This document shows, one piece after another, positions 28,599 through 58,080 of a DNA stretch of 64,000 nucleotides; position 1 is the first letter of the stretch, and each line of letters begins with the position of its first letter. This DNA is from Streptomyces djakartensis (GTDB taxonomy: Bacteria > Actinomycetota > Actinomycetes > Streptomycetales > Streptomycetaceae). The position numbers and the translations under genes were made by a program. Where the stretch lies: contig NZ_BMWE01000001.1 of assembly GCF_014651075.1 (NCBI RefSeq), forward strand, positions 62,001 through 126,000, given 5' to 3'. The notes beneath the pieces were generated by a model. The model did not search any database and was not told where the DNA came from. It saw nothing but the letters and a program-made list of their open reading frames with translations.

Positions 28599-28622
28599 GG
28601 ACACGGCCGTAAGCGGTGCCGG

Positions 28623-30182: not shown

Positions 30183-30949
30183 CGGATGTCCTCCGTGTAC
30201 TCCGTGTGCTCCGTGTCCTCCGCCGCGTGCTCCGCCGCCGTCGTGGAGCCGTTGCGGGCGACGAAGGTGTGGGTGATGCCGGTCTGCCACCCGGCGAGGG
30301 GCAGGGCACGGGCCCCCGTGAACCCGGCCCGGGTCAGCCGGCCGGTGAAGGCGGGCGCCGTGTCGAAGGCGAGGACGCTGTGCCACAGATGCTGGTAGAG
30401 GGCCCGGTCGCCGGTGAGGGTGCCCGCGGGGATGATCACGCCCTGGCAGACGGCGGTCCACAGCGCGCGGTGTGCAGGTGAGCCGCCGAGGCTGTACTCG
30501 TGTACGGCGAGGCGCCCGCCCGGCCGCAGGAGCGCCCGTACCGTGCGCAGCACGGCGTCCGGGTCGGAGACGTTGCGGAACAGGTAGGCGGCGAAGACCG
30601 CGTCGAAGGGGCCTTCACCGGCTGTTTCGAGGGTCTCGGCGCTTCTGTGCAGGAACCGCACGCCGTCGGGCCACGGCTTGGCCAGTGCCCGCCGCAGCAT
30701 GCCCGGGGAGGCGTCCACGGCGGTGATCCGGGCCCGGGGCGCGGCCCGCAGCAGGGCCAGAGTGGAGGCGCCGGTGCCGCAGCCGAGGTCGAGCAGGTGC
30801 AGACCGGCTCCGTCCCCCGGCAGCCGCAGCCGGCGGGCGGAGCGGAGCAGGTCGGTGCGGTAACCGGGGCTGAGGGCGGTGAGCCGGTCGTAGGTGCGGG
30901 CCGCGTGGTCGAAGGCGCGTGCCAGGTCGTGGTCGCGCAGCAGGGTCAT
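30179..30949 (-). CDS. crtT: SAM-dependent methyltransferase of the carotenoid operon
   Basis: A 256-residue class I methyltransferase (UbiE/COQ5-like). Motif I is LHLLDLGCGTGASTLALL (about residues 44-61), motif II region PFDAVFAAYLFRNV, and LLRPGGRLAVHEYS is the post-motif III strand. Both ends overlap neighbours by 4 nt (ATGA with crtY and crtU), so the three genes are translationally coupled. The gene has the position and size of crtT; its substrate in carotenoid metabolism has not been settled as far as I know. Confidence 0.9.
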   Translation of the reverse strand: MTLLRDHDLARAFDHAARTYDRLTALSPGYRTDLLRSARRLRLPGDGAGLHLLDLGCGTGASTLALLRAAPRARITAVDASPGMLRRALAKPWPDGVRFLHRSAETLETAGEGPFDAVFAAYLFRNVSDPDAVLRTVRALLRPGGRLAVHEYSLGGSPAHRALWTAVCQGVIIPAGTLTGDRALYQHLWHSVLAFDTAPAFTGRLTRAGFTGARALPLAGWQTGITHTFVARNGSTTAAEHAAEDTEHTEYTEDIR

Positions 30950-36325: not shown

Positions 36326-37228
36326 ATGATTGAATGCGAAAGTAAAATGACGGACATGGACGTCTCATTATCCGTACGGAGCAGTCGGGCAGCCTCACGG
36401 CATCGACTGGAGTTCGGCTTGCTGGGCCCGCTGATCGCACGCTCCGGGAACGGGGTGCTCGATGTCGGACCACCGAAGCGGCGCGTGCTGCTGATCCGGC
36501 TGCTGCTGGAACGAGGGCATGCCGTGCCGCTTGAGTCGCTCTGCGACGACCTGTGGTTCAGCCGTCCGCCGCGGAGCGCCATCTCCTCCATCCACGCGCA
36601 CATCAGCAGGCTGCGTGACGCACTGGAACCCGACCGGGCGGGGCGCGGCGCGGCGAGCGTCCTGGTGCGGGAGTCCATGGGGTACGCCCTGCGGATCCCC
36701 CCGGAAGCACAGGACACGTTCCGTTTTGAACGCAAGCTGGGACGTGCCCGGCGCCTGTTGAGGGAAGGACGCGTCACAGCGGCCCGGCTGGAGATCGACA
36801 CGGCGCTGGCGCTGTGGCGGGGAGCGGCACTCGCCGACGCCGTGGACCACCCCTTCGCCGCCCAGGAGATCGCCAGACTCGAGGAAGCCTGCCTGCTGGC
36901 CCGGGAGTTGCGGGTGACGATCCTGATGCACGAGGGGAATCTGGAGGAAGCCGTGCTGGCGGCCGAGGAGCTGACCTCGCGTACCCCCCTGCGGGAGGTC
37001 AGCTGGGAGCTGCTGATGCGGGCGCTGTACATGTCGGGCCGGCCCGCCGAGGCCCTGCAGCGGTACGCCACGCTTCGCCGGCTGCTCTCGGAGGAACTCG
37101 GCATGGACCCCGGCCCCCGGCTGCAGCGGCTGCAGACCGCGATCCTGCGGCAGGACGACGACCAGCTCACCGCCACCGGTTTCCCCGCACCGCCCCCGGG
37201 GCATGCCTGGCAGCTGAATCGGGGCTGA
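36326..37228 (+). CDS. SARP-family transcriptional activator
   Basis: A 300-residue Streptomyces antibiotic regulatory protein. Residues 25-110 are the OmpR-type winged helix (FGLLGPLIARSGNGVLDVGP, KRRVLLIRLLLERG) and residues 115-270 the bacterial transcriptional activation domain (FRFERKLGRARRLLREGR; LLMRALYMSGRPAEALQRY). SARPs bind heptamer direct repeats spaced 11 or 22 bp. It converges on a second SARP gene and borders the biosynthetic cluster to the right, so it is a likely pathway activator. ATGs at 36347 and 36356 are alternative starts. Confidence 0.9.
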   Translation: MIECESKMTDMDVSLSVRSSRAASRHRLEFGLLGPLIARSGNGVLDVGPPKRRVLLIRLLLERGHAVPLESLCDDLWFSRPPRSAISSIHAHISRLRDALEPDRAGRGAASVLVRESMGYALRIPPEAQDTFRFERKLGRARRLLREGRVTAARLEIDTALALWRGAALADAVDHPFAAQEIARLEEACLLARELRVTILMHEGNLEEAVLAAEELTSRTPLREVSWELLMRALYMSGRPAEALQRYATLRRLLSEELGMDPGPRLQRLQTAILRQDDDQLTATGFPAPPPGHAWQLNRG

Positions 37229-37287: not shown

Positions 37288-38049
37288 TCAAAGAAGCGCC
37301 GGATCCTGACGAAGGATCCCGTAGAACTTGCTCTGCAGGTCACGTCCCGGATCGAGCCCCAGGCTGTGCGAGAGGCGCTCGACCATCTGGCTGTACGCGT
37401 CCAGAGCATCCGCCTGGCGACCCGAGCGGTAAAGGGCGGTGATCAGCTGGGCGCAGAAGCGCTCATGGAACGGGTACATGGCATGCATCTGCTCCAGATC
37501 GCGAATGAGCGAGTGGTGCTGATTCAGCTTCAGCCGAATGTCGAACAGCCTCTCGGAAGCGGTGATCCGGGTCTGCTGGAGCCGACTGTAGGCCATACGG
37601 CAAATGGCCCCCTGTCCCGTGTCCACGAGCGCCGGACCGCGCCATAACTCGGTCGCCGTCGTGAGAAGTTCGGCGGACTTCTCCAGTTCTTCGTCCCCCA
37701 GTGACTCGGCCTGCTGGACCAGTCCTTCGAAGCGGGCGGCGTCGACCTCGACCTCAGAGCTGATCAGCGCGTACCCGGAGGGGGAGGTCTCTATGATCTC
37801 CCGCAGACCGGGCTTTCCGCTGTACACGGCGAGTACCCGGCGAAGGCGTGCGATGTGACCGTGCAGCGAGTTCTCCGCACTGCGGGGCGGCTTTTCGCCC
37901 CACAATTCGTCGATCAGGTCGTTCCGGGACACCGTGCGCCCGGCAGAGAGAGCGAGGACGGCAATGATCGCCCTCAGCTTCTCTCCCGGAATTCTGATGT
38001 GCACATCGCCGTCAGACACGTCCAAAGGTCCGAGAATTCTAATTTGCAT
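37288..38049 (-). CDS. Second SARP-family transcriptional activator
   Basis: A 253-residue SARP with the same two-domain layout: a winged helix in residues 1-95 (MQIRILGPLDVSDGDVHI, KLRAIIAVLALSAGRTVSRN, ELWGEKPPRSAENSLHGHI) and an activation domain after that (RFEGLVQQAESLGDEELE; YPFHERFCAQLITALYRSG). It is shorter and more like RedD/ActII-ORF4 than the neighbouring SARP. ATG 38049 begins the conserved domain; ATG 38082 would add 11 residues. Its codon use is less GC-extreme than that of the surroundings, as is common for pathway regulators. Confidence 0.9.
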   Translation of the reverse strand: MQIRILGPLDVSDGDVHIRIPGEKLRAIIAVLALSAGRTVSRNDLIDELWGEKPPRSAENSLHGHIARLRRVLAVYSGKPGLREIIETSPSGYALISSEVEVDAARFEGLVQQAESLGDEELEKSAELLTTATELWRGPALVDTGQGAICRMAYSRLQQTRITASERLFDIRLKLNQHHSLIRDLEQMHAMYPFHERFCAQLITALYRSGRQADALDAYSQMVERLSHSLGLDPGRDLQSKFYGILRQDPALL

Positions 38050-38343
38050 CGAACATCCACTTCCAAGAAAACTACCGGTCAAACCTGCGGATGAAACGGC
38101 GACATCCGGCAGCGGTCTGATTCTTGTTTCTCGTTCAACGTGCGCGAGCTATCAGCCCATCGACCTGCCCCCCAGAAGTCCCCCGTGGACCTCCCTTCGG
38201 CATCATGGACCACGTTTCTTGTCGTCGGCTTGTTGCCCCGCCCTACCGGATTGCCTACTTCTTGGTAATAACTTCGGGGGGTAACGGTGATCCTTCCGGC
38301 GCGACGCGGCTCCCGGACGTCCCTACCGCACAGGTCAGCGCGA

Positions 38344-39758: not shown

Positions 39759-41090
39759 TCATGCCGCGCGTCGGGCGCCCCGTTCCATCAGGCCCAGCGC
39801 GGCGCCCAGCAGCGGCCGGGCGGGACGGGGCAACGGCAGCCGGGGGGCCCGGGACCGATGCCAGGGCAGCCGGTCGGGGACGTCGCCGGTCAGCGCCTTG
39901 GCCACATGGGCACCGTGCGCCACGGACATGGCGAGGCCATGACCGCAGCAGCCCCCCAGGTACCAGACGTCCGGACGGTCGGCGAGTGGTCCGACGACCG
40001 GCAGACCATCGGTGGTCATCCCGATCTGTCCGGCCCAGCGGTGGGTCACCTCGACCTCGGCGAGGGCCGGGTGCAGTCCGCGCAGCCGCTCCTCCAGCCC
40101 CCGCCACACCGCCGCCGAGCCCGAGTCGTCGGCCACCGGCGCGAGCAAAGGCCTGCCTCCGCCCAGCACCAGCCGCCCGTCGTGGGTGAGCCGGAAGTAC
40201 GGCGCCAAGGGATGGGCGTCGATCAGCGCACAGCCGGTCCGGCCGCCCAGCGCCTCCTGGGCGTCGGCGGGCAGCGGCGCGGTCGCGATGGCGTGCACCA
40301 GCAGCGGCAGCACCGTGCCGACCGGCAGGCCGAGGGCGCCCGCCGCCGCGTTGACGGCCAGCACCGCCTTGCGGGTGCGTACCATCCCCCCGGGAAAGAC
40401 GAGACGGGTCTCGGCGGCGGACTCTCCGGGTCTGAGCGCCAGCAGCGGACTGTTGCCGAGGAAACGGACGCCCTTGGCGGCGCAGGCACGAGCCAGGGCG
40501 CCGGTGAGGGCCGCCGGGTCGAGGGTGGCCGCGCGGTACAGCAGGCCGGCGTGGAAGGGCACGTCCACCCGGTCGCGAATGTCCGCCGCGGAGAGGGCCG
40601 GTACGTCCAGACCGAGCTCCCGGTACGCCGCCGCCTGCCGGGCGAGTGTGGCCAGTCCGTCGGCGGTGCGGGTGGCCACCACCTGTTCGCCGGTTCGGCA
40701 GGACGTCGCCACGCCCAGCCGGGCACACAGTTCGATGACCTGCTCCACGGCCTCGACGCTGGCCGTGTACATGCGGCGGGCGGTGTCCGGGCCGAAGCGC
40801 CGCACGGCCTGGTCGACGGGCGGGCCGACACGGGGGCCGAGCAACCCGGTACCGCGTCCGCTCGCGCCGGCGGCGGGGCCCTCGGCGTCGACCACCAGGA
40901 TGTCCAGGGACGGGTCGCGCTCGGCAAGGTGGTAGGCGGTGGAGAGCCCGGCGAGACCGGCGCCCACCACCGTCACGTCCGCCTCCAGCAGCCCGCGCGC
41001 CGGCGGCGGTGCCGGTTCGTCGCCGGAGGGCGCCGTCATGGCCGGGTCGGGGCCCCGCCAGCAGGGGCGGCCGGCCGGGGGTCTGGTCAC
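39759..41090 (-). CDS. FAD-dependent amine/amino-acid oxidase-type oxidoreductase (DAO family)
   Basis: A 443-residue flavoprotein of the D-amino-acid oxidase/glycine oxidase fold. The nucleotide motif is VTVVGAGLAGLSTAYHLAER (about residues 39-58), followed by ASGRGTGLLGPR, which binds the flavin, and the C-terminal GGCCGHGLAMSVAHG typical of the family. Members oxidise C-N bonds of amines and N-substituted amino acids. The GTG start overlaps the flavin-reductase stop (GTGA), so the two are translated together; that pairing suggests a linked redox function in the cluster. Confidence 0.85.
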   Translation of the reverse strand: MTRPPAGRPCWRGPDPAMTAPSGDEPAPPPARGLLEADVTVVGAGLAGLSTAYHLAERDPSLDILVVDAEGPAAGASGRGTGLLGPRVGPPVDQAVRRFGPDTARRMYTASVEAVEQVIELCARLGVATSCRTGEQVVATRTADGLATLARQAAAYRELGLDVPALSAADIRDRVDVPFHAGLLYRAATLDPAALTGALARACAAKGVRFLGNSPLLALRPGESAAETRLVFPGGMVRTRKAVLAVNAAAGALGLPVGTVLPLLVHAIATAPLPADAQEALGGRTGCALIDAHPLAPYFRLTHDGRLVLGGGRPLLAPVADDSGSAAVWRGLEERLRGLHPALAEVEVTHRWAGQIGMTTDGLPVVGPLADRPDVWYLGGCCGHGLAMSVAHGAHVAKALTGDVPDRLPWHRSRAPRLPLPRPARPLLGAALGLMERGARRAA

Positions 41091-41683
41091 GCTTCCTCCA
41101 GGGGCGGTCGGTGGTCGGGGGCGACGGAGAGCGGGACGCCTTCGTCGGCGAGCGTGTGGAAGGACCTGCCGTGCCAGAGCAGGGGACGGCCGGCCGCCGT
41201 GCGCACCGCCGCGATCCGGCCGACCACCAGGCAGTGGTCGCCGTAGCGGCGTATGTCCTCCGTCAGGCAGACCGACCAGCCGAGGGTGTCCTCCAGTACG
41301 GGGACGGCGAGCACCCGGCGATGGTCCACGCCCGCGAACCGCTCAGCGGAGCCGACCCGGGGGTCGGCGAAGAGCTTCGCGCGCGCCCGCTGCGACTGCG
41401 GCAGCAGATTGACGGCGAAGCGGCCCCTCGTCTCGATCACGGAGAGGGTCCGCGAGCCGGTGCCCATGCAGACGAGCAGGAGGGGCGGATCGGCGGAGAG
41501 CGAGGTGACCGCCGAGACAGTGCTGCCCGCCGGGCCGTCCGGGCCCTGCACGGTCACCACCGTCACGCCGGACGCCAGCCTGGCGTAGAAGTCCAGGCAG
41601 GCCTCCTCCCCGGCTTGCGGTGTGGTGAACGGGTCCGAGTCGTCCCGGTCGCCGAGGGGTGCTCCGGTGGTGACCTGGCGCAT
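41087..41683 (-). CDS. Flavin reductase (FMN/FAD-binding split-barrel)
   Basis: A 198-residue flavin reductase that supplies reduced flavin to two-component monooxygenases. The family core is visible: ARLASGVTVVTVQGPDGPAG, STVSAVTSLSADPPLLLVCM (flavin site), RGRFAVNLL and GDHCLVVGRIAAV with the conserved GDH motif. AGGAG 7 nt upstream fixes ATG 41683. No obvious class A/D partner adjoins it; within the cluster the acyl-CoA-dehydrogenase-fold enzyme at 53855-54988 is the best candidate, as in the VlmH/VlmR pair of valanimycin biosynthesis. Confidence 0.9.
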   Translation of the reverse strand: MRQVTTGAPLGDRDDSDPFTTPQAGEEACLDFYARLASGVTVVTVQGPDGPAGSTVSAVTSLSADPPLLLVCMGTGSRTLSVIETRGRFAVNLLPQSQRARAKLFADPRVGSAERFAGVDHRRVLAVPVLEDTLGWSVCLTEDIRRYGDHCLVVGRIAAVRTAAGRPLLWHGRSFHTLADEGVPLSVAPDHRPPLEEA

Positions 41684-41734
41684 CACCGGGCTCCTTTCTG
41701 AAGTGCGTTGGAGAAGCTGCCGGTTCCGGGGCAT

Positions 41735-47224: not shown

Positions 47225-47908
47225 TCACTTCTGTCCGAGGGCGCACACCCAACCGAGCGAACGGCGTGGCTCGGCGACGAACCGGACGTTGCGGAAGCCG
47301 GCCTTGGCCAGCATGTCGGTCAGTTCGGCACCGGACAGGATGTGCAGCCCGTCCCGCTCCGAGCGCTCGGTGAACTGCCGGCCGAAGAAGCGCTGGATCA
47401 GCGAGGGGTGGTCGTCGGCCGCCTCCCGGCTCATCTCCAGGGTGATCGCCACCTGCCCGCCCGGCCGGAGCACACGGTGTGCCTCGGCGAGCCCGCGCAT
47501 CGGGTCGGGCCAGAAGTAGAAGGTCTCGATCGCGCTCACGTGGTCGAAACTGGCGTCGTCGTAGGGCAGTTCGGCCGAGTCGCCGTGCCGGACCTCGACC
47601 CGTCCGCGGGCGATGGCGTCGGCGTTGCGGCGAACGGCCTGGCTGACCATGTCCATCGAGTAGTCGACGCCGGCGACGAAGCCCTGCGGCGTCCGCTCGG
47701 AAAGCAGCTTGACCGCCATCCCGCCACCGCAGCCCACGTCAAGAACGCGCTGGGAGCGGCGCACCTCCATGTGCTCGATCGCCCACACCGTCAACGAGCG
47801 GTGCTGGAGCGTCATCAGGTGGCCGACGAGTTGCCCGGCCGTGCCGTTGGGCTGCCGGAAGTTCGCCTCGACCACTTCCAGGGGTTTCTTGAGCAGCGTG
47901 CCGATCAT
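47225..47908 (-). CDS. SAM-dependent methyltransferase
   Basis: A 227-residue class I methyltransferase. Motif I is QRVLDVGCGGGMAVKLL (about residues 52-68), then GVDYSMDMVSQAV, FDHVSAIETFYFWPD and LRPGGQVAITLEM. It resembles UbiE/CfoM-type O- or C-methyltransferases for small hydrophobic substrates. The start ATG 47908 is preceded by GGGAAAG. It is the first protein gene of the minus-strand operon and is 148 nt downstream of the terminator that follows the tRNA gene, so it may use read-through or a promoter of its own. Confidence 0.9.
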   Translation of the reverse strand: MIGTLLKKPLEVVEANFRQPNGTAGQLVGHLMTLQHRSLTVWAIEHMEVRRSQRVLDVGCGGGMAVKLLSERTPQGFVAGVDYSMDMVSQAVRRNADAIARGRVEVRHGDSAELPYDDASFDHVSAIETFYFWPDPMRGLAEAHRVLRPGGQVAITLEMSREAADDHPSLIQRFFGRQFTERSERDGLHILSGAELTDMLAKAGFRNVRFVAEPRRSLGWVCALGQK

Positions 47909-48055
47909 CCGGCTTTCCCTTCGCAAGCTTGCGGGTGGGGAGACATTCCCGGCCGACGGCGCGAGAGAGCCGCCGGAATCCCGGCCGGGCCCCGGCCACG
48001 GCGACGGCCGGAGATCGTCGGCTCGGGGGCCGTCGGCCGGGCCATGGTGCGTTGC

Positions 48056-48101
48056 GGCCCTCCGGGGAAGCGGACCGCGTGGTCCGCTTCCCCGGAGGGC
48101 C
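48056..48101 (-). terminator. Strong terminator directly after the tRNA gene
   Basis: A 21-bp perfect stem (left arm begins GGCCCTCCGGGGAAGCGGAC) closes a GCGT loop. It starts 5 nt past the tRNA 3' end on the tRNA strand. Its strength implies that the tRNA is a discrete transcript. Confidence 0.92.
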
Positions 48102-48105
48102 GATG

Positions 48106-48192
48106 CGGAGAGGGCAGGATTCGAACCTGCGAGGGCTTGCACCCGATCCGGATTGCTCCGGAACCCCGTTGGGCCGCTTCGGGTACCTCTCC
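48106..48192 (-). tRNA. tRNA-Ser-like RNA with aberrant anticodon arm
   Basis: An 87-nt type II tRNA: acceptor GGAGAGG/CCTCTCC (7 bp), discriminator G73, D arm CCCG/CGGG with a GG-containing loop, a 16-nt variable region with its own stem (CGGG-TGCAA-GCCC), and T arm GCAGG-TTCGAAT-CCTGC. All serine identity elements outside the anticodon are present. The anticodon arm (48147-48163) is TTCCG-GAGCAAT-CCGGA: in standard register one pair is a C-C mismatch, position 33 is A instead of the universal U and the triplet is GCA (Cys); a shifted register gives five good pairs but only a 6-nt loop. No serine anticodon can be placed. CCA is not fully encoded. A strong terminator follows and a SARP-type repeat array precedes it. 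Confidence 0.85.
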
Positions 48193-48239
48193 AGTGCGGC
48201 GGGGCCGAAGGACGCTCGCCCCGTTCGCCGGTGTCCATG

Positions 48240-48284
48240 ATTCTGCCGCCCTCTCCTGACATTCCACTGAGACGGTTCTGAGAC
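48240..48284 (-). promoter_or_regulatory. Phased heptamer array and putative -10 upstream of the tRNA
   Basis: On the minus strand GTCTCAG, N4, GTCTCAG, N4, ATGTCAG gives three heptamers at exact 11-bp spacing (plus coordinates 48278-48284, 48267-48273, 48256-48262). Ten nt further is CAGAAT (48240-48245), a fair -10 hexamer, which would start transcription about 40 nt before the tRNA. Direct heptamers at 11 bp just before the -10 are the known binding layout of SARP activators. The site also faces the plus-strand gene at 48390. Confidence 0.75.
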
Positions 48285-48389
48285 GCGGGGTTCACCGGCG
48301 TCCAAGCAGGCCATCTTTGAAAGGAGTTCCAATGGGGGGACGGCCTCCGGCGCATGTCACGCGGAGGCCTCGGCGAGCGGAGAGATCTT

Positions 48390-49124
48390 GTGCCCGAATT
48401 GCCCGTGGATACCATGAACAAGAAGAACGACCCCTGCCGGCTGCACGACGGCGAGGCGCGACGGCTCCTGGCCGGAGCGCGCTGGCGCCGGATGGTGGCG
48501 CTCGGCGAGGGCAGGGCGGACCGGCGTGCGGAACCGGTCGAGGGTTACGGCAGCGCGTGCTGGCCCGAACTGGTCGCGGACGCCCTGCGGGAGGGGGAAC
48601 CCGCGGTGGCCTGCCTCAACCTGCTGAGCGGGCGGGTGCGGCAGGCGGCCGACATCCGTTCCCGGCAGCTTCCCGAGGCGCTGGCCTTCGGCGGGGACCT
48701 GGCGGTGATCCAGCTGATCGGCCACGAACTGCTGAGCCCGGGCTTCGATGCCGGCACCTTCCGGACGGAACTCGTCCGGATCATCGCCCCGCTGCGCGAA
48801 CGCGGTTACGACGTGCTGCTGGTGGACCCCTTCGATCTGACGCGATCACCGGGGGCAGGGCAGCTGGACCACGAGGTGGTACGGGCCCGGCAGCGCGCCC
48901 AGGTCAAGCACTCCCGGACCCTGGCGCTGAGGCACGGGGCGCTCCATGTGGACCTGTCGTCCAGTGGGCCCGTGGCTGACGCCGGGATGTGGGACGGTAC
49001 CGGGAGGGCGCTGAACGGCCGTGGTCATGCCGTGACGGCCGCGGCGGTGGTGCGGGCACTCGGCCGGCACCTCCGTCCGTCGAGCCCGGGCTCTTCGCCG
49101 GCCGGCAAGGTGCCGCGGCCCTGA
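48390..49124 (+). CDS. SGNH/GDSL-hydrolase-like protein lacking catalytic residues
   Basis: A 244-residue protein with the SGNH fold layout: RWRRMVALGEG (residues 31-41) is where active enzymes have ALGDS, LAVIQLIGHELL replaces the GGNDL block, and ALNGRGH near the C-terminus lies where enzymes have D-x-x-HLN-x-x-GH. The nucleophilic Ser, the block-III Asn and the catalytic His are therefore all lost, although the fold elements and length are kept. I read it as a pseudoenzyme, perhaps binding an acyl substrate. GTG 48390 has GGAG 7 nt upstream; ATG 48414 is an alternative. Confidence 0.7.
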   Translation: MPELPVDTMNKKNDPCRLHDGEARRLLAGARWRRMVALGEGRADRRAEPVEGYGSACWPELVADALREGEPAVACLNLLSGRVRQAADIRSRQLPEALAFGGDLAVIQLIGHELLSPGFDAGTFRTELVRIIAPLRERGYDVLLVDPFDLTRSPGAGQLDHEVVRARQRAQVKHSRTLALRHGALHVDLSSSGPVADAGMWDGTGRALNGRGHAVTAAAVVRALGRHLRPSSPGSSPAGKVPRP

Positions 49125-49947: not shown

Positions 49948-51198
49948 TCAGGCGCGTGTGAGCAACAGTACTGCGTTCTGGCCCCCGAAGCCGAAGGAGT
50001 TGCTGACGACCACCTCGACCGGCGTCGCACGCCCCTCCTTGGCGACCACGTCCAGCTCGATCTCGGGATCCAGGCTCTCCAGGTTGGCGGTCGGCGGGAC
50101 GAACGAATCCGCCAGCGTGAGCGCGGCCACCGCCGCCTCGATCGCTCCGGCGGCGGCGAGCGAATGCCCCGTCACGCCCTTGACCGAGGTGACCAGCGGC
50201 CGGTCTCCGAGGGCGCCTCGGATCAGACGGGCCTCCGTCGCGTCATTGATCAGGGTCGAGGTGCCGTGCGCGTTGACGTGGTCCACCTCGTCCGGGCCGA
50301 CGCCGGCGTCCCTGAGCGCCGCCCGCAGCGCGAGCCCGGCGCCCGTGCACTCCGGGTCCGGCGCCGTCGGGTGGTAGGCGTCCGCGGAGGCGCCGTAGCC
50401 GCTGATCATCGCGCGGATCCGGGCCCCTCGTGCCCGGGCGTCCCCGGCCCGCTCCAGCACCAGCACGGCGGCACCCTCGGCGACGACGAAGCCGTCCCGG
50501 TCCGCGTCGAAGGGACGGGACGCGCCACGAACGTCGTCGCTCCGCCGGGACAGCGCGCCCATCTGGCTGAAACCGGTGACCAGCGAAGGGGTCAGAGGCG
50601 CCTCCGTGCCCCCGGTGATCACCACGTCGCAGGCCCCCGAGCGCAGCAGATCACGGGCGGTCCCGATGGCGGTCGTACCCGAGGCGCACGCCGTCGCCGT
50701 CACCAGCGACGGGCCGCGGGCGCCGAACTCCATCGACACGTACCCGGCGGCCATATTGGCCGACAGCATCGGGATGAGCCGGGGGGAGACCCGGCGCGGC
50801 CCCGAGTCGAGAAGCCTGCGATGCTGCGTCTCCCAGGTCTCGGCGCCGCCGATTCCGTTGCCGAGCACCACACCGACACGGGCGCCGTCCCAGGTCTGCG
50901 GATCCAGGCCGGAGTCGGCCACCGCCTCCATGGCAGCGGCCAGCACCAGCTGGCTGGAGCGGTCGAACTGCCCGGCCCGGCGCCGGCCGAGCACCGCGAC
51001 CGGGTCGAAGCCGGGCACCCTGCAGGCGAAATCGGTCGTGATGCCCGCGAGTTCCGGCATCCTGACGGCCTCCGTGCCGGCGCCCTCCCGGATGCGCTCC
51101 CAGGACGCGGCGGTGCCGGCCCCGGCCGGGGTCATCATGCCGAGTCCGGTGACGGCCGCGTCGAACCGCTCGTGCTCGCCGCTCGGGCTGCCGCCCAT
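49948..51198 (-). CDS. Beta-ketoacyl-ACP synthase (FabF/KAS II type)
   Basis: A 416-residue ketosynthase that condenses acyl groups with malonyl-ACP. The catalytic triad is complete: Cys171 in VTATACASG, His311 in NAHGTST and His345 in GVTGHSLAAAG. FGFGGQNAVLLL closes the protein. It is a stand-alone KS; no chain-length factor, acyltransferase or ketoreductase is present in the window, so it probably draws on fatty-acid synthase or on genes to the right. The start overlaps the ACP stop codon by one base (TGATG), so KS and ACP are coupled. Confidence 0.94.
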   Translation of the reverse strand: MGGSPSGEHERFDAAVTGLGMMTPAGAGTAASWERIREGAGTEAVRMPELAGITTDFACRVPGFDPVAVLGRRRAGQFDRSSQLVLAAAMEAVADSGLDPQTWDGARVGVVLGNGIGGAETWETQHRRLLDSGPRRVSPRLIPMLSANMAAGYVSMEFGARGPSLVTATACASGTTAIGTARDLLRSGACDVVITGGTEAPLTPSLVTGFSQMGALSRRSDDVRGASRPFDADRDGFVVAEGAAVLVLERAGDARARGARIRAMISGYGASADAYHPTAPDPECTGAGLALRAALRDAGVGPDEVDHVNAHGTSTLINDATEARLIRGALGDRPLVTSVKGVTGHSLAAAGAIEAAVAALTLADSFVPPTANLESLDPEIELDVVAKEGRATPVEVVVSNSFGFGGQNAVLLLTRA

Positions 51199-51437
51199 CA
51201 GACGGCTACCGTCTTCTGCTCGATGACCTGGGCCGCCTGCGCCAGCGTGGAGTCGGGGCCGACCTCGTCGTTGGTCAGCGCGACACCGAACTCCTCCTCG
51301 GCGGCGACGGTGAGTTCGACCAGGGCGAGCGAGTCCATCTCCAGGTGCCCGAACGTGTCGTCCGGGTTCAGCTCGTCGGCCTCCAGCCCGAAGCCCTCGG
51401 TCAGCAGCTTGACGAGACGGTCGTAGACGTTGCTCAT
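51198..51437 (-). CDS. Acyl carrier protein
   Basis: A 79-residue carrier. The phosphopantetheine attachment site is Ser36 in HLEMDSLALVEL; helices I-IV are evident, and helix II is acidic (VELTVAAEEEFGV), as needed for KS docking. It precedes and overlaps the KS gene. In this cluster it would carry the growing or finished acyl chain for release by the reductase encoded at 62631-63737; that link is inference. Confidence 0.95.
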   Translation of the reverse strand: MSNVYDRLVKLLTEGFGLEADELNPDDTFGHLEMDSLALVELTVAAEEEFGVALTNDEVGPDSTLAQAAQVIEQKTVAV

Positions 51438-51507: not shown

Positions 51508-51999
51508 TCAGCGGTGGGCCGGCACGCCGGCCGCCTGGCCAGGGGCCGGCTCCACGCCTGACGCCTCGTAGCGCTCCCGGAAGGCGGTGTACGCCGGATG
51601 GGGCTCGGGCTCGAAGCGCAGCGCGAACGGCTTCAGGAAGTTGCCGAAAAGGGCGCGGTCCCCGAAGAGGTGGATCGGAATGGCCAGCAGCGCCCACTCG
51701 GCTCCGAAGAGCCAGATCCAGGCGAGCACCACAAGCCCCTGGGTCACCAGGCTGTGCATCACGTTGTAGAGGACGAAGTAGACCTTCGGTATGCGTTTGT
51801 CGGGGCTGCGGCGGTAGGCGAAGGCCCCGGGCAGGTAGCCGATCAGGTCGATGTAGACGAACAGCCCGATCGCCGGGAGCCAGCGGACCTCGTCGAGGTG
51901 GGCGAAGAAGAGGACGGTCGCCACCACCAGGCCGAGCCCGTACTCCAGACGGATCAGCCGGTAGGTGGTGGGCGTCTCGAAGAGGTTCTTGCCGTCCAT
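51508..51999 (-). CDS. Small polytopic membrane protein, function unknown
   Basis: A 163-residue protein with four predicted membrane segments (about residues 18-35, 41-62, 72-96 and 103-118). Polar residues that could bind metal lie within or beside the segments: FFAHLDE, YNVMHSLV and IHLFGDRALFGNF. The start overlaps the preceding SRPBCC stop by one base. I do not recognise the family. Valanimycin-type clusters also encode uncharacterised membrane proteins, so a membrane enzyme is possible, but that is speculation. Confidence 0.75.
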   Translation of the reverse strand: MDGKNLFETPTTYRLIRLEYGLGLVVATVLFFAHLDEVRWLPAIGLFVYIDLIGYLPGAFAYRRSPDKRIPKVYFVLYNVMHSLVTQGLVVLAWIWLFGAEWALLAIPIHLFGDRALFGNFLKPFALRFEPEPHPAYTAFRERYEASGVEPAPGQAAGVPAHR

Positions 52000-52511
52000 C
52001 AGCGGAGCCCCGGGACGCTCGGGGAGGGGATGGCCGACTCCACCACGGCCTTGGCCACCGCCTCGTCGTCCACCACGCTCACCGCTCCGGCGAAGAGGCC
52101 GAAGACGACCCGGGCGATGGTCTCCTTGAACACCCGCTGCGCCACCGGGTCCAGAATGCCGGCCAGGCTGGGGATGCCGAAGTCGAAGTCGGCGGAGAAG
52201 AAGACCAGGCTGTCCGGCCCGTCGGCGGTGATCCGCCAGCTTCCGGAGAACTCCTCGAAGTCGCCGTCGACCTGCTCGAAGGAGATGACCAGGGCCTCCC
52301 GGTCGAAACGATCGGCCTCGGTCCACCGCAGGATGCCGTTGCGGAAGTAGACCTCCCAGTCGCTCGTCTCCTCCTGGGGGGAGATCTCGTGGACGGTCAC
52401 GCTCCGGACCACGTCGGTGAAGTCCGGGTAGCGGGCGAAGTCATGGACCCGCTCGAACACGGCCTGAGGACTGACGTCGTGGATACGGAGGGCTACAGAT
52501 GCGTTACGCAT
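51999..52511 (-). CDS. SRPBCC/polyketide-cyclase-like protein
   Basis: A 170-residue member of the aromatase/cyclase-like SRPBCC group: SPQAVFERVHDFARYPDFTD, VRSVTVHEISPQEETSDWEV, YFRNGILRWTEADRFD and FEEFSGSWRI. It is more like classic polyketide cyclases than the other two SRPBCC proteins in the cluster. It overlaps the aminotransferase gene by 8 nt at its start and the membrane-protein gene by one base at its end, so it is tightly coupled within the operon. Confidence 0.85.
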   Translation of the reverse strand: MRNASVALRIHDVSPQAVFERVHDFARYPDFTDVVRSVTVHEISPQEETSDWEVYFRNGILRWTEADRFDREALVISFEQVDGDFEEFSGSWRITADGPDSLVFFSADFDFGIPSLAGILDPVAQRVFKETIARVVFGLFAGAVSVVDDEAVAKAVVESAIPSPSVPGLR

Positions 52512-53844
52512 GGTCTCGGCTGCTTCCTGCGGTGGATGAGTAGCGGGCCGCCTGCGCGCGGCACGCCCGGTCGAACGCCTCGTAGAGGAAGTCCACATCG
52601 CTGCGGGCCAGAACGGCGGGCGGGGTCAGACGGAGCACCAGGTGCGAGTTGAGGGAGTGGTTGGCGATCACTCCGTTGTCGATCAGCTCGATGAGCAGGT
52701 CGCCGGCCGGTCCCGGCTCGGCGAACTCGATGCCCAGCAGCAGTCCCCGGCCGCGCACCTCGCGCACGGCGTCCCCATAGTGGTGCACGGCGATCCTGCG
52801 CAGTTCCGGCAGCAGTTCGTCGCCCAGTTCGCGGGCCCTGGTGACGAGTTCCTCCTCCTTCATGGCCGCGATGGCCCCGCGGGCGGCGGCCATGGCGAGC
52901 GGAGCGCCGGAGAAGGTGGAGGTGTGCAGATACGGGTCACGGTCGAAGACGGAGAACGCCTCCCGGGTCGCCACCACGGCCGACACCGGCACGACCCCGC
53001 CGCTGAGTCCCTTGCCGACGAGCATGATGTCAGGGGTGACGCCCTCCGCGTCCGCGCCCCACCAGGTGCCGAGGCGTCCCAGGCCGGTCTGGATCTCGTC
53101 GAGCACCAGCAGCGCCCCGTGCCGGTCGCAGGCCTCCCGCACGGCGCGCAGGTAGCCGGCCGGTGGGATGACGACTCCGGCCTCGCCCTGCACCGGTTCC
53201 ACGAACACGCAAGCCTCGCCGGGTGCCTCGGCGAGCACCGCCTCCAGTGCCGCGGCGTCACCGAACGGAACGTGCGTGGTTCCCGGCAGCAGCGGCTGGA
53301 ACGGGGCGCGGAAGAGCTCGTTGCCGGTGAGGCTGAGCGCGCCCGCCGTCTTGCCGTGGTAGCCGTTGACCGTGGCGACCAGCCGGTGCCGGCCCTTGGT
53401 CCGGGCCAGCTTGAGCGCGGTCTCGGCGGCCTCGGCCCCCGAGCCGGCGAAGTGGACGCGGGACAGTCCGGCCGGGACGACGGAGATCAGCGCCTCCGCG
53501 GCGAGCGCCGCCTGCGGCTCCAGGAAGACCCGGGTGGAGATCGGATGGGTCTGAAGCTGCTCGACGACGTGCCGGATGACCGTGGGGTGCCGGGCACCGG
53601 TCAGGAAGACGCCGTAGCCCCCGCAGTTGAGGAAGCGCCGTCCCTCGGCCGTGGTGACCCAGGCGCCCTGCGACTCCACTTCGACATGGCCGCCGAACAT
53701 CTCACCGAGGGTGGCCCGGCCCCGGTTCAGGTGGTCGCGGTACATCTGGCCGAGTTCCTCACGGCCGGGTATGCGGCGGGCACCGCCGGGGGCCGCCCGG
53801 TCCGGGGCGGCGGCGGTCGGTGAGGTGCCTGGTGCGATGGTCAC
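52504..53844 (-). CDS. Class III pyridoxal-phosphate aminotransferase
   Basis: A 446-residue fold-type I transaminase (ornithine/omega-amino acid group). PLP-site motifs: AGSGAEAAETALKLAR, VNGYHGKTAGALSLTG, VLDEIQTGLGRLG with Asp249, and Lys278 in LVGKGLSGGVVPVSA. Such enzymes convert a terminal aldehyde to an amine, so it could turn a reduced ACP-bound chain into an alkylamine. It starts at GTG 53844 with GGAG 6 nt upstream, only 10 nt after the flavoenzyme gene. Alternatives are beta-amino or 2,4-diaminobutyrate chemistry. Confidence 0.92.
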   Translation of the reverse strand: MTIAPGTSPTAAAPDRAAPGGARRIPGREELGQMYRDHLNRGRATLGEMFGGHVEVESQGAWVTTAEGRRFLNCGGYGVFLTGARHPTVIRHVVEQLQTHPISTRVFLEPQAALAAEALISVVPAGLSRVHFAGSGAEAAETALKLARTKGRHRLVATVNGYHGKTAGALSLTGNELFRAPFQPLLPGTTHVPFGDAAALEAVLAEAPGEACVFVEPVQGEAGVVIPPAGYLRAVREACDRHGALLVLDEIQTGLGRLGTWWGADAEGVTPDIMLVGKGLSGGVVPVSAVVATREAFSVFDRDPYLHTSTFSGAPLAMAAARGAIAAMKEEELVTRARELGDELLPELRRIAVHHYGDAVREVRGRGLLLGIEFAEPGPAGDLLIELIDNGVIANHSLNSHLVLRLTPPAVLARSDVDFLYEAFDRACRAQAARYSSTAGSSRDHA

Positions 53845-53854: not shown

Positions 53855-54988
53855 TCAGGCCAGACGCAGCGGCTCGCCCGCCGCGTGCGCCAGGTACGGG
53901 CCGGTGAAACTGCTCCGGGACGGCGGGTGGAAGCCGATCCCGTGCGAGGCGGCGGCCAGGACGGCGACGTCGGACGCGGTCATGAACGCGGTCCCGCCCA
54001 GCAGTTCCACCGCTTGGTTCCGGGCGTCGCCGAGCGCGTCCTGCGCCGCGTACCGGGCGACCAGCGCCTGGGCGAGGCCCTCGTTGCCGATCTCGCCGTC
54101 CCGCACCCGCCGGGCCACGCCCTCGAGGAGCTGGGCGGCCGCCTCCAGGCGGATCAACGCCCGTGCCCGGTCCGAATCGCTGCCCTTGCGCTGGTCCACG
54201 GCCCGTTCGACCAGACCGCTGACCATGCCCAGGTAGCAGCTGGAGATGAGCAGTTCGAACCAGATGAGGCCGACGGTCTGGAGCTCGTCCAGCTCGCCCG
54301 GGCCGGCCGTGTTGGGCATCATCAGCTGCTCGTCCACGAAGACATCGGTCAGCCGGATCTCGTCGCTCTCGGCGCCCGCGAGCGCCTGGCTCCCCCAGAA
54401 CGGGTGCACACTGACCCCTTCCGTCTCCCGGGGGATCAGCAGCACCGCCATCTGCGTGGTGCCGTCGGCGGCGGGCAGCGCCACACTGGCGGTCAGCAGG
54501 TCCATGGAGCGGGACAGGCTGCACGGCTTCTTGGAGCCGTTGATCAGATAACCGCCCTCGGTCCTCCGGGCGGTCATGGTCGGCGACAGGATGCCCTGAC
54601 CGGGCCGCCCCTCCGCGAACCCGGAGGCGACCAGCAGCCCCTGCTCCGCGACCCCTTCGAGCAGCGCCCACTCCATGCCGCTGCTCTGCACGCTGGCCGC
54701 GAGACTGAACAAGGTGGCCACGGAGAAGTGGTGCATCGTGGTCGCCACCGCCAGGGACGGGGCGTAGGAGGCCAGGGCCCGGGTCACGGCCATCGCCTGG
54801 AGCGGGTCCGCGCCGACACCCCCGTACTCCTTGGGGATCACCAGAGCGGGCCCGCCGCACTGCCGGAAGTGGCTGATGGCCGGGCTCTGCGGTGCCTCGA
54901 GCTCCGCGAGCGGAACGCCGGCGAGGCGGTCGAGCAGGCCGGGCAAGAAGGATTCACAGGTCGCGCGTGCTGCTTCGAGTGGGCGCAT
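53855..54988 (-). CDS. Acyl-CoA-dehydrogenase-fold flavoenzyme (dehydrogenase or N-hydroxylase)
   Basis: A 377-residue flavoprotein with the ACAD fold: IPKEYGGVGADPLQAMAVTR, VASGFAEGRPGQGILSPTMT and the C-terminal QAVELLGGTAFMTASDVAVL. The fold is shared by acyl-CoA dehydrogenases and by two-component monooxygenases such as DszC and the isobutylamine N-hydroxylase VlmH. I cannot place the catalytic Glu of true acyl-CoA dehydrogenases, and no acyl-CoA ligase is nearby, whereas an aminotransferase is adjacent and a flavin reductase is in the cluster. I therefore favour amine N-hydroxylation, with moderate confidence only. ATG 54988 begins the conserved part. Confidence 0.8.
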   Translation of the reverse strand: MRPLEAARATCESFLPGLLDRLAGVPLAELEAPQSPAISHFRQCGGPALVIPKEYGGVGADPLQAMAVTRALASYAPSLAVATTMHHFSVATLFSLAASVQSSGMEWALLEGVAEQGLLVASGFAEGRPGQGILSPTMTARRTEGGYLINGSKKPCSLSRSMDLLTASVALPAADGTTQMAVLLIPRETEGVSVHPFWGSQALAGAESDEIRLTDVFVDEQLMMPNTAGPGELDELQTVGLIWFELLISSCYLGMVSGLVERAVDQRKGSDSDRARALIRLEAAAQLLEGVARRVRDGEIGNEGLAQALVARYAAQDALGDARNQAVELLGGTAFMTASDVAVLAAASHGIGFHPPSRSSFTGPYLAHAAGEPLRLA

Positions 54989-55026
54989 GCGGATTCTCTC
55001 TGCTCTCTCGGTCTTTGCAGGTCTCA

Positions 55027-55064
55027 CCGGTGGTCCCGGCGCTCGGTCGCACCGGGACCACCGG
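55027..55064 (-). terminator. Stem-loop between aldehyde dehydrogenase and flavoenzyme genes
   Basis: CCGGTGGTCCCGG and its complement form a 13-bp stem with a 12-nt loop in the 174-nt gap. It could partly terminate or stabilise the message and so set the ratio of the two enzymes. Confidence 0.6.
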
Positions 55065-55162
55065 CCGCGTACAGCGGTCACCGTCCGGCGCCGACGGCCC
55101 GGGGCGGTCATCGGCCGGCCGGGCACCCGTGGGTCATCGGCCGGCAGCGGTCAGCGGCGCTG

Positions 55163-56878
55163 TCACTCGACCGCCGTCTCCGTCTCCGCCTCGTTCCGGC
55201 GCATCGCCTGCCAGGCGCCGAACACGGCGTCCCTCGGGCGGATGCCGCCTGCGGAGACGCTCACGCCCTGGATGTGCGAGGTGCGCAGGATCGGGTAGTT
55301 GGCCTCGCCGTACACCCCGCCGGTCAGGCCGGTGCCGCCGTGCGTGGGCAGCCCGGGCAGGAAGCCGATGTGCGAGTCGTTCACCTTGAGCAGGCCGCCC
55401 TTGGTGATCCGGGTGACGAAGTGGTCCACCACCTCGGGGTCGCGGGCCCACACCGAGTTCCGCAGCCCGTAGGGGTTGCTGTTGACGAAGTCCACGAACC
55501 GCTCGAGCAGCACGGTGTCCGGGGCCGGCTCGGCGGCGATCACCGGCAGCAGCGGGAAGAAGGTCTCGTGGCGCACCGCCTGGATCTCCCGGGCCTCGGC
55601 CATCCCCCGGACCAGCACCACCGTCGGCTCCAGGAAGATGCCGGCGGTGTCCCGGGTGCCGTCGGCCTGCATCGCGTGCCCGCCGCAGACCAGTTCGGCA
55701 CCATGGGCAAGGGCGTCGTCCAGGCAGGCGAAGAACTTCTCGTTGCGCAGTACCGGGGTGAGCAGCACTCCCTCGTCCCGGACGGAACCGCCCCGGACCT
55801 CGCGGGCCTTCTCGGCCAGCAGAGCGACCAGCCGCTCCGTGACGTCCGGATGCGCGAGCACCTGGTTGGGGATCATGCACAGCTGGCCGGAGCCGTAGAA
55901 GCTCTCGGTCAGCGCCTCGGCGGCGTACTCCAGGTCCGCGTCCTTCCACACCACGACCGCGTCGTTGCCGGCGAGTTCGAGGATCGGCTTCTTGCCGGAC
56001 GCCACGCAGCGCTCCTGGAAGCGCATGCCGGCCTCGCTGCTGCCGAAGTACATGATGTCGTCGACGAGCGGGCTGTCCAGCCAGGCCGAGAGCACCGGGG
56101 CCGGGTCGCCGCAGACCACGTTCAGCGTGCCGCCGGGTGCGCCGAGTTCCTGGAGCACCGGCGCGACCACCTCGTGCAGGACGTACATCACGCCCAGCGG
56201 GGCGCTGCGCGGAGCCCGTACGACCAGGGAGTTGCCGGCCATCATCGCCGTCACGCCGAGCAGCGCGCTCGACAGCGGGGCGTTCTGCGGCGGGTTGAGG
56301 CAGACCACGCCGTCCGGCCTGCGCCGCACGGATATCCGCCGCTCGCCGTGCTGGGACTCCTGCAGCATCTGGCTGCGGTAGAAAGCGAGGGACTCGGGCC
56401 CGAAGCACTCCAGCGCCCCGGACACCTGCCAGCGGGCCAGCGCCAGCGGGTGGCCCTCCCGCAGCAGGATCTCGATGGTGCGGTCGGCCTTCTCCGCCAG
56501 TCGGCGGTGCAGCAGGGCACCGAACCGGTCCAGCCGCTCCTCGAGCGGGAAGGCGTTCCACTCACCGGTCGCACGGGAGGCCGCCTCGACGGCCTGCGAA
56601 ACGGTCTCGCGGTCCGCCCGCGCCACTCGCCCGACGATGCTGCCACCGGGCAGCTCCTCGGGGGCCAGCCGGCCGCTCTCCAGCTTCCTCTTCAGCGTCA
56701 GGCTGGTGAAGGCGTCATCCAGCAGGGCGTCCGAGTCGACGACGTAGACCCATCGGTCACTCGGCACGTTCTTGCCGTCGACGAGCGAGGCGTAGCTCAG
56801 CAGACCGGTGCTGTTCTCCCCGGTGCCGACGGTGTCCTTGAGATGCGACGCCCGGGGCGTCGTACGGGCGCTGCCCAC
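55163..56878 (-). CDS. Aldehyde dehydrogenase family protein
   Basis: A 571-residue NAD(P)-dependent dehydrogenase, longer than usual owing to a ~60-residue N-terminal extension. Catalytic residues are seen: Glu in LELAGNDAVVVW and Cys in SFYGSGQLCMIPNQVL; RPDGVVCLNPPQNAPLSSAL is the substrate/cofactor entry region. It may oxidise an aldehyde or, like acylating relatives, interconvert thioester and aldehyde. GTG 56878 has GGAGG 6 nt upstream and is preferred over GTG 56908. It heads the operon that runs to 49417 and is divergent from the DUF2156 gene across a shared regulatory region. Confidence 0.88.
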   Translation of the reverse strand: MGSARTTPRASHLKDTVGTGENSTGLLSYASLVDGKNVPSDRWVYVVDSDALLDDAFTSLTLKRKLESGRLAPEELPGGSIVGRVARADRETVSQAVEAASRATGEWNAFPLEERLDRFGALLHRRLAEKADRTIEILLREGHPLALARWQVSGALECFGPESLAFYRSQMLQESQHGERRISVRRRPDGVVCLNPPQNAPLSSALLGVTAMMAGNSLVVRAPRSAPLGVMYVLHEVVAPVLQELGAPGGTLNVVCGDPAPVLSAWLDSPLVDDIMYFGSSEAGMRFQERCVASGKKPILELAGNDAVVVWKDADLEYAAEALTESFYGSGQLCMIPNQVLAHPDVTERLVALLAEKAREVRGGSVRDEGVLLTPVLRNEKFFACLDDALAHGAELVCGGHAMQADGTRDTAGIFLEPTVVLVRGMAEAREIQAVRHETFFPLLPVIAAEPAPDTVLLERFVDFVNSNPYGLRNSVWARDPEVVDHFVTRITKGGLLKVNDSHIGFLPGLPTHGGTGLTGGVYGEANYPILRTSHIQGVSVSAGGIRPRDAVFGAWQAMRRNEAETETAVE

Positions 56879-56966
56879 GCAGATCCTCCGCTCTCCCGCC
56901 TCCACCACGGGGACGGGAAGAAATGTCCAACGTCATGGCCCTTGCAACCGACTGTCACAGCCACGC

Positions 56967-56995
56967 CTGACAATCGGCGGAGATGGGCCTGAGAC
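56967..56995. promoter_or_regulatory. Phased heptamer array in the divergent promoter
   Basis: On the minus strand GTCTCAG, N4, ATCTCCG, N4, TTGTCAG: three heptamers at exact 11-bp spacing (plus coordinates 56989-56995, 56978-56984, 56967-56973). Layout and sequence match the array before the tRNA gene. An inverted repeat GCCTGACAA/TTGTCAGGC (56965-56973 and 57000-57008) overlaps it. It probably controls both the aldehyde dehydrogenase operon and the DUF2156 operon. Confidence 0.75.
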
Positions 56996-57081
56996 CGGTT
57001 TGTCAGGCTGATCAGAGTGCCCTCCGCGACCATGAGCCGGGTGTGTTCGTCGGCTGCTCAGATGACGACAGGGAGAAGCGG

Positions 57082-58080
57082 ATGGTCAGCGTCAACCAGG
57101 AGTCCGACCGGGACGCAGTGGTCGCGGCCCTACAGGAGAGTGCGGACAACCCCAGCGCCTTCCTCTCCCTCAACGCCGGCAACGCCTTCTTCACCGATCC
57201 GTCGGCCGCCGGTCTGGTCGCCTATCGCGAGGCCGGTCGCTACCTGATCCAGTTCGGCGGCGTCTTCGCGCCGCAGGAGGAGCGGGAGCGCCTGCTCCGC
57301 GCCTTCCTCGGCTTCGCCCGCAAGGCCCGCCGCAAGGTGGTCGCCATCCAGCTCCAGCGCGGTGACGCCGAGTTGTACGCACGGTGCGGTTTCACCGTGA
57401 ACCAGGTCGGCTCCTCGTACGCGGTCAGGCTGCCCGGGCACACGCTGCGCGGCACCAAGTTCATGAAGCTGCGCAACAAGATCTCCAAGGCCAGGCGGAG
57501 CGGTCTCGAGGTGGCCGAGGTTCCCTATGCCGAGGCCGCCGACGAGCTCGCCTCCATCGACCGCGAATGGCTGCGCTCCAAGGGGCGTCACGTCAAGGAG
57601 ATCGAGTTCCTGGTCGGCGAGTGCGGCGGCCCGGTCCAGCACCATCGGCGGCTGCTGCTGGGCAGACTGGACGGCACCTCGATCGGCTACATCTCCTACT
57701 CGCCCGCCTACGGTTCGCACCCCGGCTGGCTGCACGACCTCAGCCGCCGCCGCGCGACCGCGCCACCCGGGGTGATGGAGGCCATCAACCTGCACGCGAT
57801 GGAGACCTTCCGTGACGAGGGAGCCGAGTGGCTGCACTTCGGCTTCACCCCGTTCGTCGGCCTGTCCCCCGACCACGAGGTCACCGGGGCGAGCCGCCTG
57901 ACCACCCGATTCATGCGCCTCATGGCCGAACGCGGCGACAAGGTCTACCCCTCGGCCAGCCAGCTCGCCTACAAGGAGAAGTGGGGTCCGGAGCTGGTAC
58001 TCCCCGAGTACCTCGCCTTCCACGGCCGCGCCAGCCTCCCCGCCATCTGGCAGATCCTGCGCGTCACCAAGTCCATCTGA
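57082..58080 (+). CDS. DUF2156 aminoacyl-tRNA-dependent transferase homologue (MprF C-terminal type)
   Basis: A 332-residue soluble protein made of two GNAT-like lobes, the catalytic half of lysylphosphatidylglycerol synthases without the membrane flippase. Diagnostic elements: TKFMKLRNKISKARRSGLEV (family: LRN-x-x-x-x-A-x-x-G), LLGRLDGTSIGYISYSPAYG, LHDLSRRRATAPPGVMEAIN and WLHFGFTPFVGLS. Known members transfer an amino acid from aminoacyl-tRNA to a lipid hydroxyl; VlmA of valanimycin biosynthesis, which I recall as a relative, moves serine from Ser-tRNA to a hydroxylamine. ATG 57082 has GGGAG 6 nt upstream. Presence of a tRNA gene in the same cluster fits this function. Confidence 0.88.
   Translation: MVSVNQESDRDAVVAALQESADNPSAFLSLNAGNAFFTDPSAAGLVAYREAGRYLIQFGGVFAPQEERERLLRAFLGFARKARRKVVAIQLQRGDAELYARCGFTVNQVGSSYAVRLPGHTLRGTKFMKLRNKISKARRSGLEVAEVPYAEAADELASIDREWLRSKGRHVKEIEFLVGECGGPVQHHRRLLLGRLDGTSIGYISYSPAYGSHPGWLHDLSRRRATAPPGVMEAINLHAMETFRDEGAEWLHFGFTPFVGLSPDHEVTGASRLTTRFMRLMAERGDKVYPSASQLAYKEKWGPELVLPEYLAFHGRASLPAIWQILRVTKSI

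Follow-up and report, generated by a model that had tools for sequence, protein, structure and literature searches.

Within a biosynthetic gene cluster of Streptomyces djakartensis lies a gene for a serine-type tRNA that has no standard anticodon arm, and the question is what such an RNA may be for. An earlier reading made from the sequence alone (hereafter the sequence-only reading) inferred that the RNA receives serine from the housekeeping SerRS, is kept off the ribosome and serves metabolism as a dedicated seryl donor. The whole stretch of DNA that was analysed, 64,000 nucleotides in length, is called the window below, and its relevant features are collected in Table 1.

Table 1. Features of the window around the tRNA gene, with strand and supporting evidence.
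Feature	Coordinates	Strand	Basis
SARP-type regulator (BTAD)	36326..37228	+	Pfam
SARP-type regulator (BTAD)	37288..38082	-	Pfam
Flavin reductase, VlmR-like	41087..41734	-	Pfam Flavin_Reduct; 34% to VlmR of L247/L250
Cytochrome P450	45777..47252	-	Pfam
Open frame, methyltransferase in downstream part	47225..48421	-	Pfam matches within residues 197-384 of the frame
Hairpin directly downstream of the tRNA, presumed transcription terminator	48055..48102	-	22 bp, -54.6 kcal/mol, z -10.4, no U-run
Serine-type tRNA without standard anticodon arm	48106..48192	-	G1 at 48192, G73 at 48106, no encoded CCA; ARAGORN, Rfam tRNA 31.5 bits, model R1 94.3 bits
Third arm, replacing the anticodon arm	48147..48162	-	6-bp stem TCCGGA/TCCGGA with GCAA tetraloop; sequence, fold, family comparison
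Presumed -10 region CAGAATCAT	48237..48245	-	inferred; placement with respect to the repeats is similar in related arrays
Three TCAG-type direct repeats with 11-bp spacing, putative SARP-type activator site (no binding data)	48256..48281	-	sole such triple in 64 kb
Ketosynthase	49948..51198	-	Pfam
Acyl carrier protein	51198..51437	-	Pfam
VlmO-like protein	51508..52326, homology 51538-51999	-	60-64% to VlmO-position proteins of L247/L250
SRPBCC-type protein	51999..52598	-	45% to L247 SRPBCC protein
Class III aminotransferase, presumed amine maker (role inferred)	52504..53844	-	Pfam
VlmH-type amine N-hydroxylase	53855..55126	-	Pfam acyl-CoA dehydrogenase domains; 49-53% to VlmH of L247/L250
Aldehyde dehydrogenase-family protein	55163..56908	-	Pfam
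VlmA-type aminoacyl-tRNA-dependent transferase, PF09924 LPG_synthase_C	56983..58080, homology from about 57085	+	Pfam E 2.3e-59; about 52% to VlmA of L247/L250; tree

The tRNA gene and its cluster

ARAGORN reported the gene as tRNA-???(ca) at 48105-48192 and found no further tRNA in the 64-kb window. The Rfam tRNA model scored it at 31.5 bits against a cut-off of 29; a faster cmscan of the whole window listed no match. Having a 7-bp acceptor stem, a D arm, a T arm and a long variable arm, the body meets the criterion of a type II tRNA, and the coordinates, the type II body and the G73 given in the sequence-only reading turned out to be exact, as confirmed by sequence, ARAGORN and Rfam. When a 5+7+5 anticodon arm is forced onto the gene, A33, the triplet GCA and one C-C stem pair are obtained, and the same features pointed out previously are true of such an arm. 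In the light of the modelled fold, the choice formerly left between a C-C mismatch and a 6-nt loop is a residue of forcing an anticodon arm onto a tetraloop hairpin. The minimum-energy fold of the entire RNA amounts to -42.2 kcal/mol (z -3.2) and was equalled by none of 200 shuffled sequences; the third-arm region folded alone is unexceptional (z -1.3, equalled by 22 of 200 shuffles).

A comparison with the ordinary tRNA-Ser genes of the genome, which the sequence-only reading had proposed as a check, revealed four of them elsewhere in it (GCT, TGA, CGA and GGA), and all four, unlike the window gene, possess a normal arm: a 5-bp stem with five pairs, a 7-nt loop and U33. The criterion for a decoding tRNA-Ser (standard anticodon arm, U33, serine anticodon) is passed by these four genes and failed by the window gene, and a tetraloop hairpin in the place of the anticodon arm would make decoding unlikely. 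Downstream of the gene, the terminator formerly ascribed a 21-bp stem is a real hairpin; its stem is of 22 bp, and it lacks a U-run. A match of the Rfam MIR531 model to this hairpin (32.5 bits, cut-off 70) was taken as chance.

The joint presence of VlmA and VlmH serves as the criterion for aliphatic azoxy clusters (PMC9379638, available in part), and it is met in the window, where homologues of VlmO (60-64%) and VlmR (34%) are encoded as well. Judging from these homologies, the biosynthetic cluster, which the sequence-only reading had recognised without naming its type, is of the VlmA/VlmH/VlmO azoxy type directed at a natural product with a nitrogen-nitrogen bond; the product itself is unidentified. 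VlmA is described as transferring serine from seryl-tRNA onto a hydroxylamine (accessible portions of PMC9379638, PMC4052509 and PMC11705231). Two queries detected no VlmB homologue in the window or in the 20 kb flanking it on each side, and one query detected none in the genome; some other enzyme, for example the FAD oxidoreductase encoded at 39759-41090, may perform this step, which is only a guess. The methyltransferase frame probably has its true start at the ATG at 47908, and this inferred start would place the tRNA upstream of the gene. Elsewhere in the window (20333-30461), genes of the polyprenyl synthetase, squalene/phytoene-synthase, amine-oxidase and photolyase types resemble a carotenoid cluster.

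The RNA family and its promoter element

A DNA search with the tRNA over 394 Streptomycetaceae genomes yielded many relatives, often in tandem, with arrays of up to 5 copies in the fetched loci. These loci provided 87 distinct candidates, from which six non-members were dropped; since 81 distinct relatives exist, a chance origin of the window tRNA is excluded. Among the 81 sequences, mean pairwise identity is highest in the T arm (99%) and the acceptor (96%), followed by the D arm (83%), and is far lower in the variable arm (55%) and the third arm (47.5%). The sequence-only reading had suggested looking for a conserved arm on a covarying body, and the reverse was found, with the body conserved and the arm variable. 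Pairing is complete (100% of cells) in the acceptor, D and T stems, the structure having been derived from the same 81 sequences, and each of the 8 third-arm pairs has changed on both sides while 86% of its cells remain paired overall. When the partners were shifted by one column, overall pairing fell from 95.7% to 55-60%. G73 is present in every aligned sequence (81/81). An arm freed from decoding would be free to change in sequence while its folding persists.

At the standard position, none of the 81 sequences forms a 5+7+5 arm that combines U33 with four or more pairs; U is found at position 33 of the standard register in 10 relatives, with fewer than four pairs. The predicted loops of the third arm are of 3-5 nt in 78 of 81, GNRA accounting for 26 and UNCG for 7. 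If the start of the stem is allowed to shift by up to 4 nt, a 7-nt loop with U33, closed by four or more pairs, becomes possible in 14 of the 81, the arm being displaced nearly always by 2-3 nt, and a serine triplet appears in such a loop only once (L116). ARAGORN recognised 67 of the 81 relatives under 41 different labels, two of the calls being serine (L049 gct and L076 cga), and it also gave a serine label to one plasmid copy (L246 act). The claim that no serine anticodon can be placed accordingly holds for the window gene and does not extend to the serine-like relatives L049, L076, L246 and L116. As far as the alignment can tell, the family retains the third arm as a hairpin and shares no decoding triplet; for a minority of relatives (the 14 with a displaced loop and the 10 with U33) an odd anticodon loop cannot be ruled out on present sequences, and the loss of decoding is less sure there. 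In open-licence literature, a scope that leaves out most subscription journals and bioRxiv, we found neither a description of this family nor a dedicated tRNA for azoxy or other clusters; a mention in the original valanimycin papers (2002, 2008, 2010) is not excluded.

The repeat array previously noticed upstream of the gene is real, consisting of three TCAG-type repeats that form the sole 11-bp triple in 64 kb. From 73 arrays of relatives, 70 distinct upstream pieces were obtained, and random pieces of the same fetched loci served as background. TCAG-N7-TCAG, that is, the 11-bp spacing, is present in 65 of the 70 pieces and the three-repeat form (T or C first) in 58, compared with 0.9% and 0.6% of random pieces, respectively; at the other spacings tested, a TCAG pair was seen in 0-2 of 70. 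Many of the 70 pieces are mutually related, and the counts overstate their independence. The same element was found at those copies unlinked to VlmA that were looked at. SARP sites are described as heptamer direct repeats with a classical unit of 11 bp, and VlmI as binding triple repeats upstream of vlmJ and vlmA-vlmH (PMC10972967, available in part). The criterion for a SARP promoter, direct repeats of an 11-bp period upstream, is thus met both in the window and in these 65 upstream regions. Of the three triple TCAG sites in a plasmid cluster (L250), one precedes the RNA, another precedes the vlmJ homologue and the third lies between the homologues of vlmH and vlmA. In the absence of binding data, the 11-bp TCAG element is what would be expected of an RNA that belongs to the pathway regulon.

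Co-occurrence of the RNA with VlmA

The 394 genomes were searched with the covariance model R1, 10 candidates being scored per genome under strict filters. Matches below 1e-13 were obtained in 41 genomes, followed by two damaged copies at about 1e-9 (G120 and G041); the remaining matches, at 4e-8 or weaker, were not individually inspected. A protein search for VlmA (E up to 1e-50) retrieved 64 of the 394 genomes, and all 41 genomes with the RNA fall inside these 64 (Fisher p=1.6e-39, a value that ignores genome relatedness and hence overstates independence). In 25 of the 41 genomes, a copy and a VlmA frame are at most 150 bp apart, mostly in divergent orientation, one of these genomes (G074) having a broken VlmA; by coordinates, 38 have a copy no more than about 25 kb away. 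The three genomes without such a copy are G011, where VlmA is on another contig, G195 and G173. The distances were measured to stop-to-stop frames and can be larger when counted to true starts. For the 32 closest VlmA relatives from named genomes, a search was possible in 31 genomes, and each of these 31 carries the RNA at 6.9e-13 or better. Of 396 genomes taken from the whole phylum, just two score as members, G000 and G060, which belong to the genus of the window; six borderline matches (1e-9 to 1e-10) were ordinary tRNA-Ser with normal anticodons.

Six loci from genomes lacking VlmA at the threshold used were examined and proved to be three damaged members, one locus of ordinary tRNA-Ser genes (L165) and two weak matches, so that no intact member was seen among these six. 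The damage in the three copies (L074, L163, L164) consists of broken acceptor stems in G120 and G123, and of a D-stem deletion with a T-stem mismatch in G041.

Seven genomes (G102, G163, G173, G179, G195, G207 and G272), six of them from one other genus (g14), contain at least 9-15 copies each, three of them showing 15, which may be a lower bound; many of the copies are far from VlmA, at distances of hundreds of kb. Possible explanations include a higher demand, a relaxed control of copy number and an additional role. Tandem copies were also observed as a run with about 265-bp spacing in G195, as four copies beside VlmA in G237, as an array beside nothing more than a VlmA fragment in L149 (G323:C1:5129180-5149179), and as an array beside a VlmA frame broken into pieces in L133 (G074). 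The accessible part of a report on Kitasatospora griseola MF730-N6 gives 100 tRNA genes along with a valanimycin-like cluster (PMC4384148), and this count may include RNAs of the present kind.

A VlmA tree was calculated for 94 sequences as a quick tree with a midpoint root, some rows sharing a genome; it does not include four fragments from L133 and L141, the duplicates L236 and L113, G250, or the VlmA of G074, which is broken. A single clade (SH-aLRT 98) takes in 67 of the rows: the genome carries the RNA in 66 of the 66 checkable rows, the status of one row's genome being not checkable. Twenty-three of the 27 rows outside the clade are in genomes without the RNA, and the other four (L221, L222, L223, L237) are in genomes that also hold an in-clade VlmA. 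The RNA-bearing clade includes a valanimycin-type cluster, and four Streptomyces plasmid clusters have the RNA, one of which (L250) combines a valanimycin-type gene set with two copies. A Paraburkholderia locus with VlmA showed no RNA; its VlmA, when added, formed a long and unsure branch, and the tree then needs two changes.

PF04072 is the family given for Ady1-like methyltransferases (PMC9379638, in the part available). It was identified in one RNA-less locus, and a homologue search from there led to 13 fetched loci, all of which have an out-of-clade VlmA and no RNA copy. This azodyrecin-type marker is hence present in 13 of the 27 out-of-clade rows, the other 14 being without it within the fetched pieces.

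Fifteen distinct fetched loci, all of them with the RNA, encode a second SerRS that has diverged from the housekeeping enzyme (35-42% identity), and serS is also annotated in two plasmid clusters that carry the RNA. The window genome showed one SerRS; no SerRS match was obtained in the 20-kb flanks, and a valanimycin-type SerRS query gave no match in the window. Charging by the housekeeping SerRS, which is itself inferred, fits a genome with a single such enzyme.

Proposed function and comparison with known systems

The serine identity of a tRNA is reported to reside mainly in the variable arm, together with G73, and not to depend on the anticodon (PMC9976931, available in part). With the structure, the family, the association with VlmA and the promoter element as observations, the following sequence of events may be inferred. 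The SARP activator of the pathway would switch the RNA on, as suggested by the 11-bp TCAG repeats, and SerRS would charge it, an assumption based on G73, the long variable arm and the literature on serine identity; the enzyme would be the sole SerRS found in the window genome and, in related clusters, perhaps the second, VlmL-like SerRS. The short tetraloop hairpin in place of the anticodon arm would make decoding unlikely. VlmA would then move the serine from the RNA onto an alkylhydroxylamine, VlmO would form the N-N bond, and the outcome would be a seryl pool reserved for the natural product.

Because the RNA has a chargeable body, a non-decoding arm, a pathway-type promoter and a near-perfect association with VlmA, we consider it highly probable that it is a dedicated seryl donor for VlmA, acting outside decoding; its charging, expression, ribosome exclusion, serine transfer and necessity for the pathway are inferred. 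The donor function proposed in the sequence-only reading has gained support from the cluster type and from the RNA tracking VlmA, with charging, expression and ribosome exclusion remaining inferences. It is also probable that the relatives make up a family of seryl-tRNAs without a working anticodon arm, controlled by the pathway and handing serine to VlmA, some with a SerRS of their own as a second seryl-tRNA system, and with at least 9-15 copies in seven genomes. Several observations run counter to seryl donation: the far-off copies in seven genomes, G195 and G173 having no copy near VlmA, the VlmA fragment of L149, the broken VlmA of G074 and the failure to find a VlmB homologue. The accessible parts of published accounts of VlmA mention no special tRNA, and ordinary tRNA-Ser may serve. 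The displaced register weakens the view that no anticodon is possible in 14 of the 81 relatives.

Among the other explanations, a regulatory tRNA mimic that senses the state of serine or SerRS, or titrates SerRS or another tRNA-binding factor without donating serine, is unlikely and survives best. A charged non-decoding RNA could act as a sensor or decoy, and the scattering of copies within seven genomes suggests an effect of dosage in trans; however, the RNA follows the seryl-transferring VlmA (its association with regulators was not compared likewise) and does not follow the 27 VlmAs outside the clade, of which 13 are accompanied by the azodyrecin-type marker. We find it very hard to accept a role in self-protection, in which a serine-tRNA body would survive an anticodon nuclease or a product that blocks tRNA-Ser: it can be reasoned that a loop-less, hypervariable arm would evade a nuclease of the anticodon loop, but a non-decoding tRNA could not restore translation. 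Still less credit can be given to a recoding tRNA that would, for example, insert serine at Cys codons of cluster proteins. The triplet GCA of the forced reading and the displaced U33 loop possible in 14 of 81 relatives are compatible with it, yet the ARAGORN triplets vary widely (41 labels over 67 calls) and a standard arm with U33 is absent from all 81; the Cys-misreading alternative raised earlier fails because no triplet is kept across relatives. The abnormal third arm and the low tRNA score of 31.5 bits could point to a decayed tRNA-Ser pseudogene or an integration-site remnant carried in the cluster, but this is barely conceivable. The acceptor, D and T stems are fully paired over 81 sequences, 65 of 70 upstream regions have an element resembling a promoter, tandem arrays reach 5 copies, and the RNA tracks one VlmA clade; true decay looks different, with acceptor or D stems broken in three VlmA-less genomes.

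If dedicated seryl donation holds true, these RNAs represent a natural class of tRNA released from the genetic code. The RNA is a sequence marker for one VlmA clade, and the clusters offer natural SerRS/tRNA pairs for study. Since ARAGORN labels many genes of the family as Gln, Ala, Met, Sec, His and others, automated tRNA tallies for Streptomyces and related bacteria may be affected.

The non-proteinogenic tRNA-Gly of staphylococci, the donor for the FemXAB cell-wall bridges, is reserved as an amino-acid donor outside translation, as is proposed for the window RNA; it differs in keeping its anticodon arm, in its amino acid and transferase, and in serving the cell wall rather than a natural product. 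tmRNA is a charged tRNA-like body without an anticodon arm, as the window RNA would be if charged, but it differs in that it carries alanine, acts on the ribosome and contains an mRNA part. tRNA-Sec resembles the RNA as inferred here in being serine-charged, with a long extra arm and elements that bar normal elongation factors (PMC9976931, partial text); it differs in reading a stop codon. Azodyrecin (ady) clusters are VlmA/VlmH-type azoxy clusters too; for these, alanyl-tRNA from the cellular pool has been proposed (available part of PMC9379638), and the 13 loci with a PF04072 homologue are without the RNA. A further likeness is to the valanimycin pathway of Streptomyces viridifaciens (VlmA, VlmL, VlmH, VlmO), where VlmA puts serine from seryl-tRNA on a hydroxylamine; the L250 plasmid cluster with its valanimycin-type gene set holds two copies of the RNA, whereas published accounts of valanimycin, so far as they are accessible, mention no dedicated tRNA. 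How Ser-tRNA is diverted from protein synthesis into valanimycin was called unknown in a 2014 review (PMC4052509, available in part), and a dedicated non-decoding RNA would be a simple and directly testable answer.
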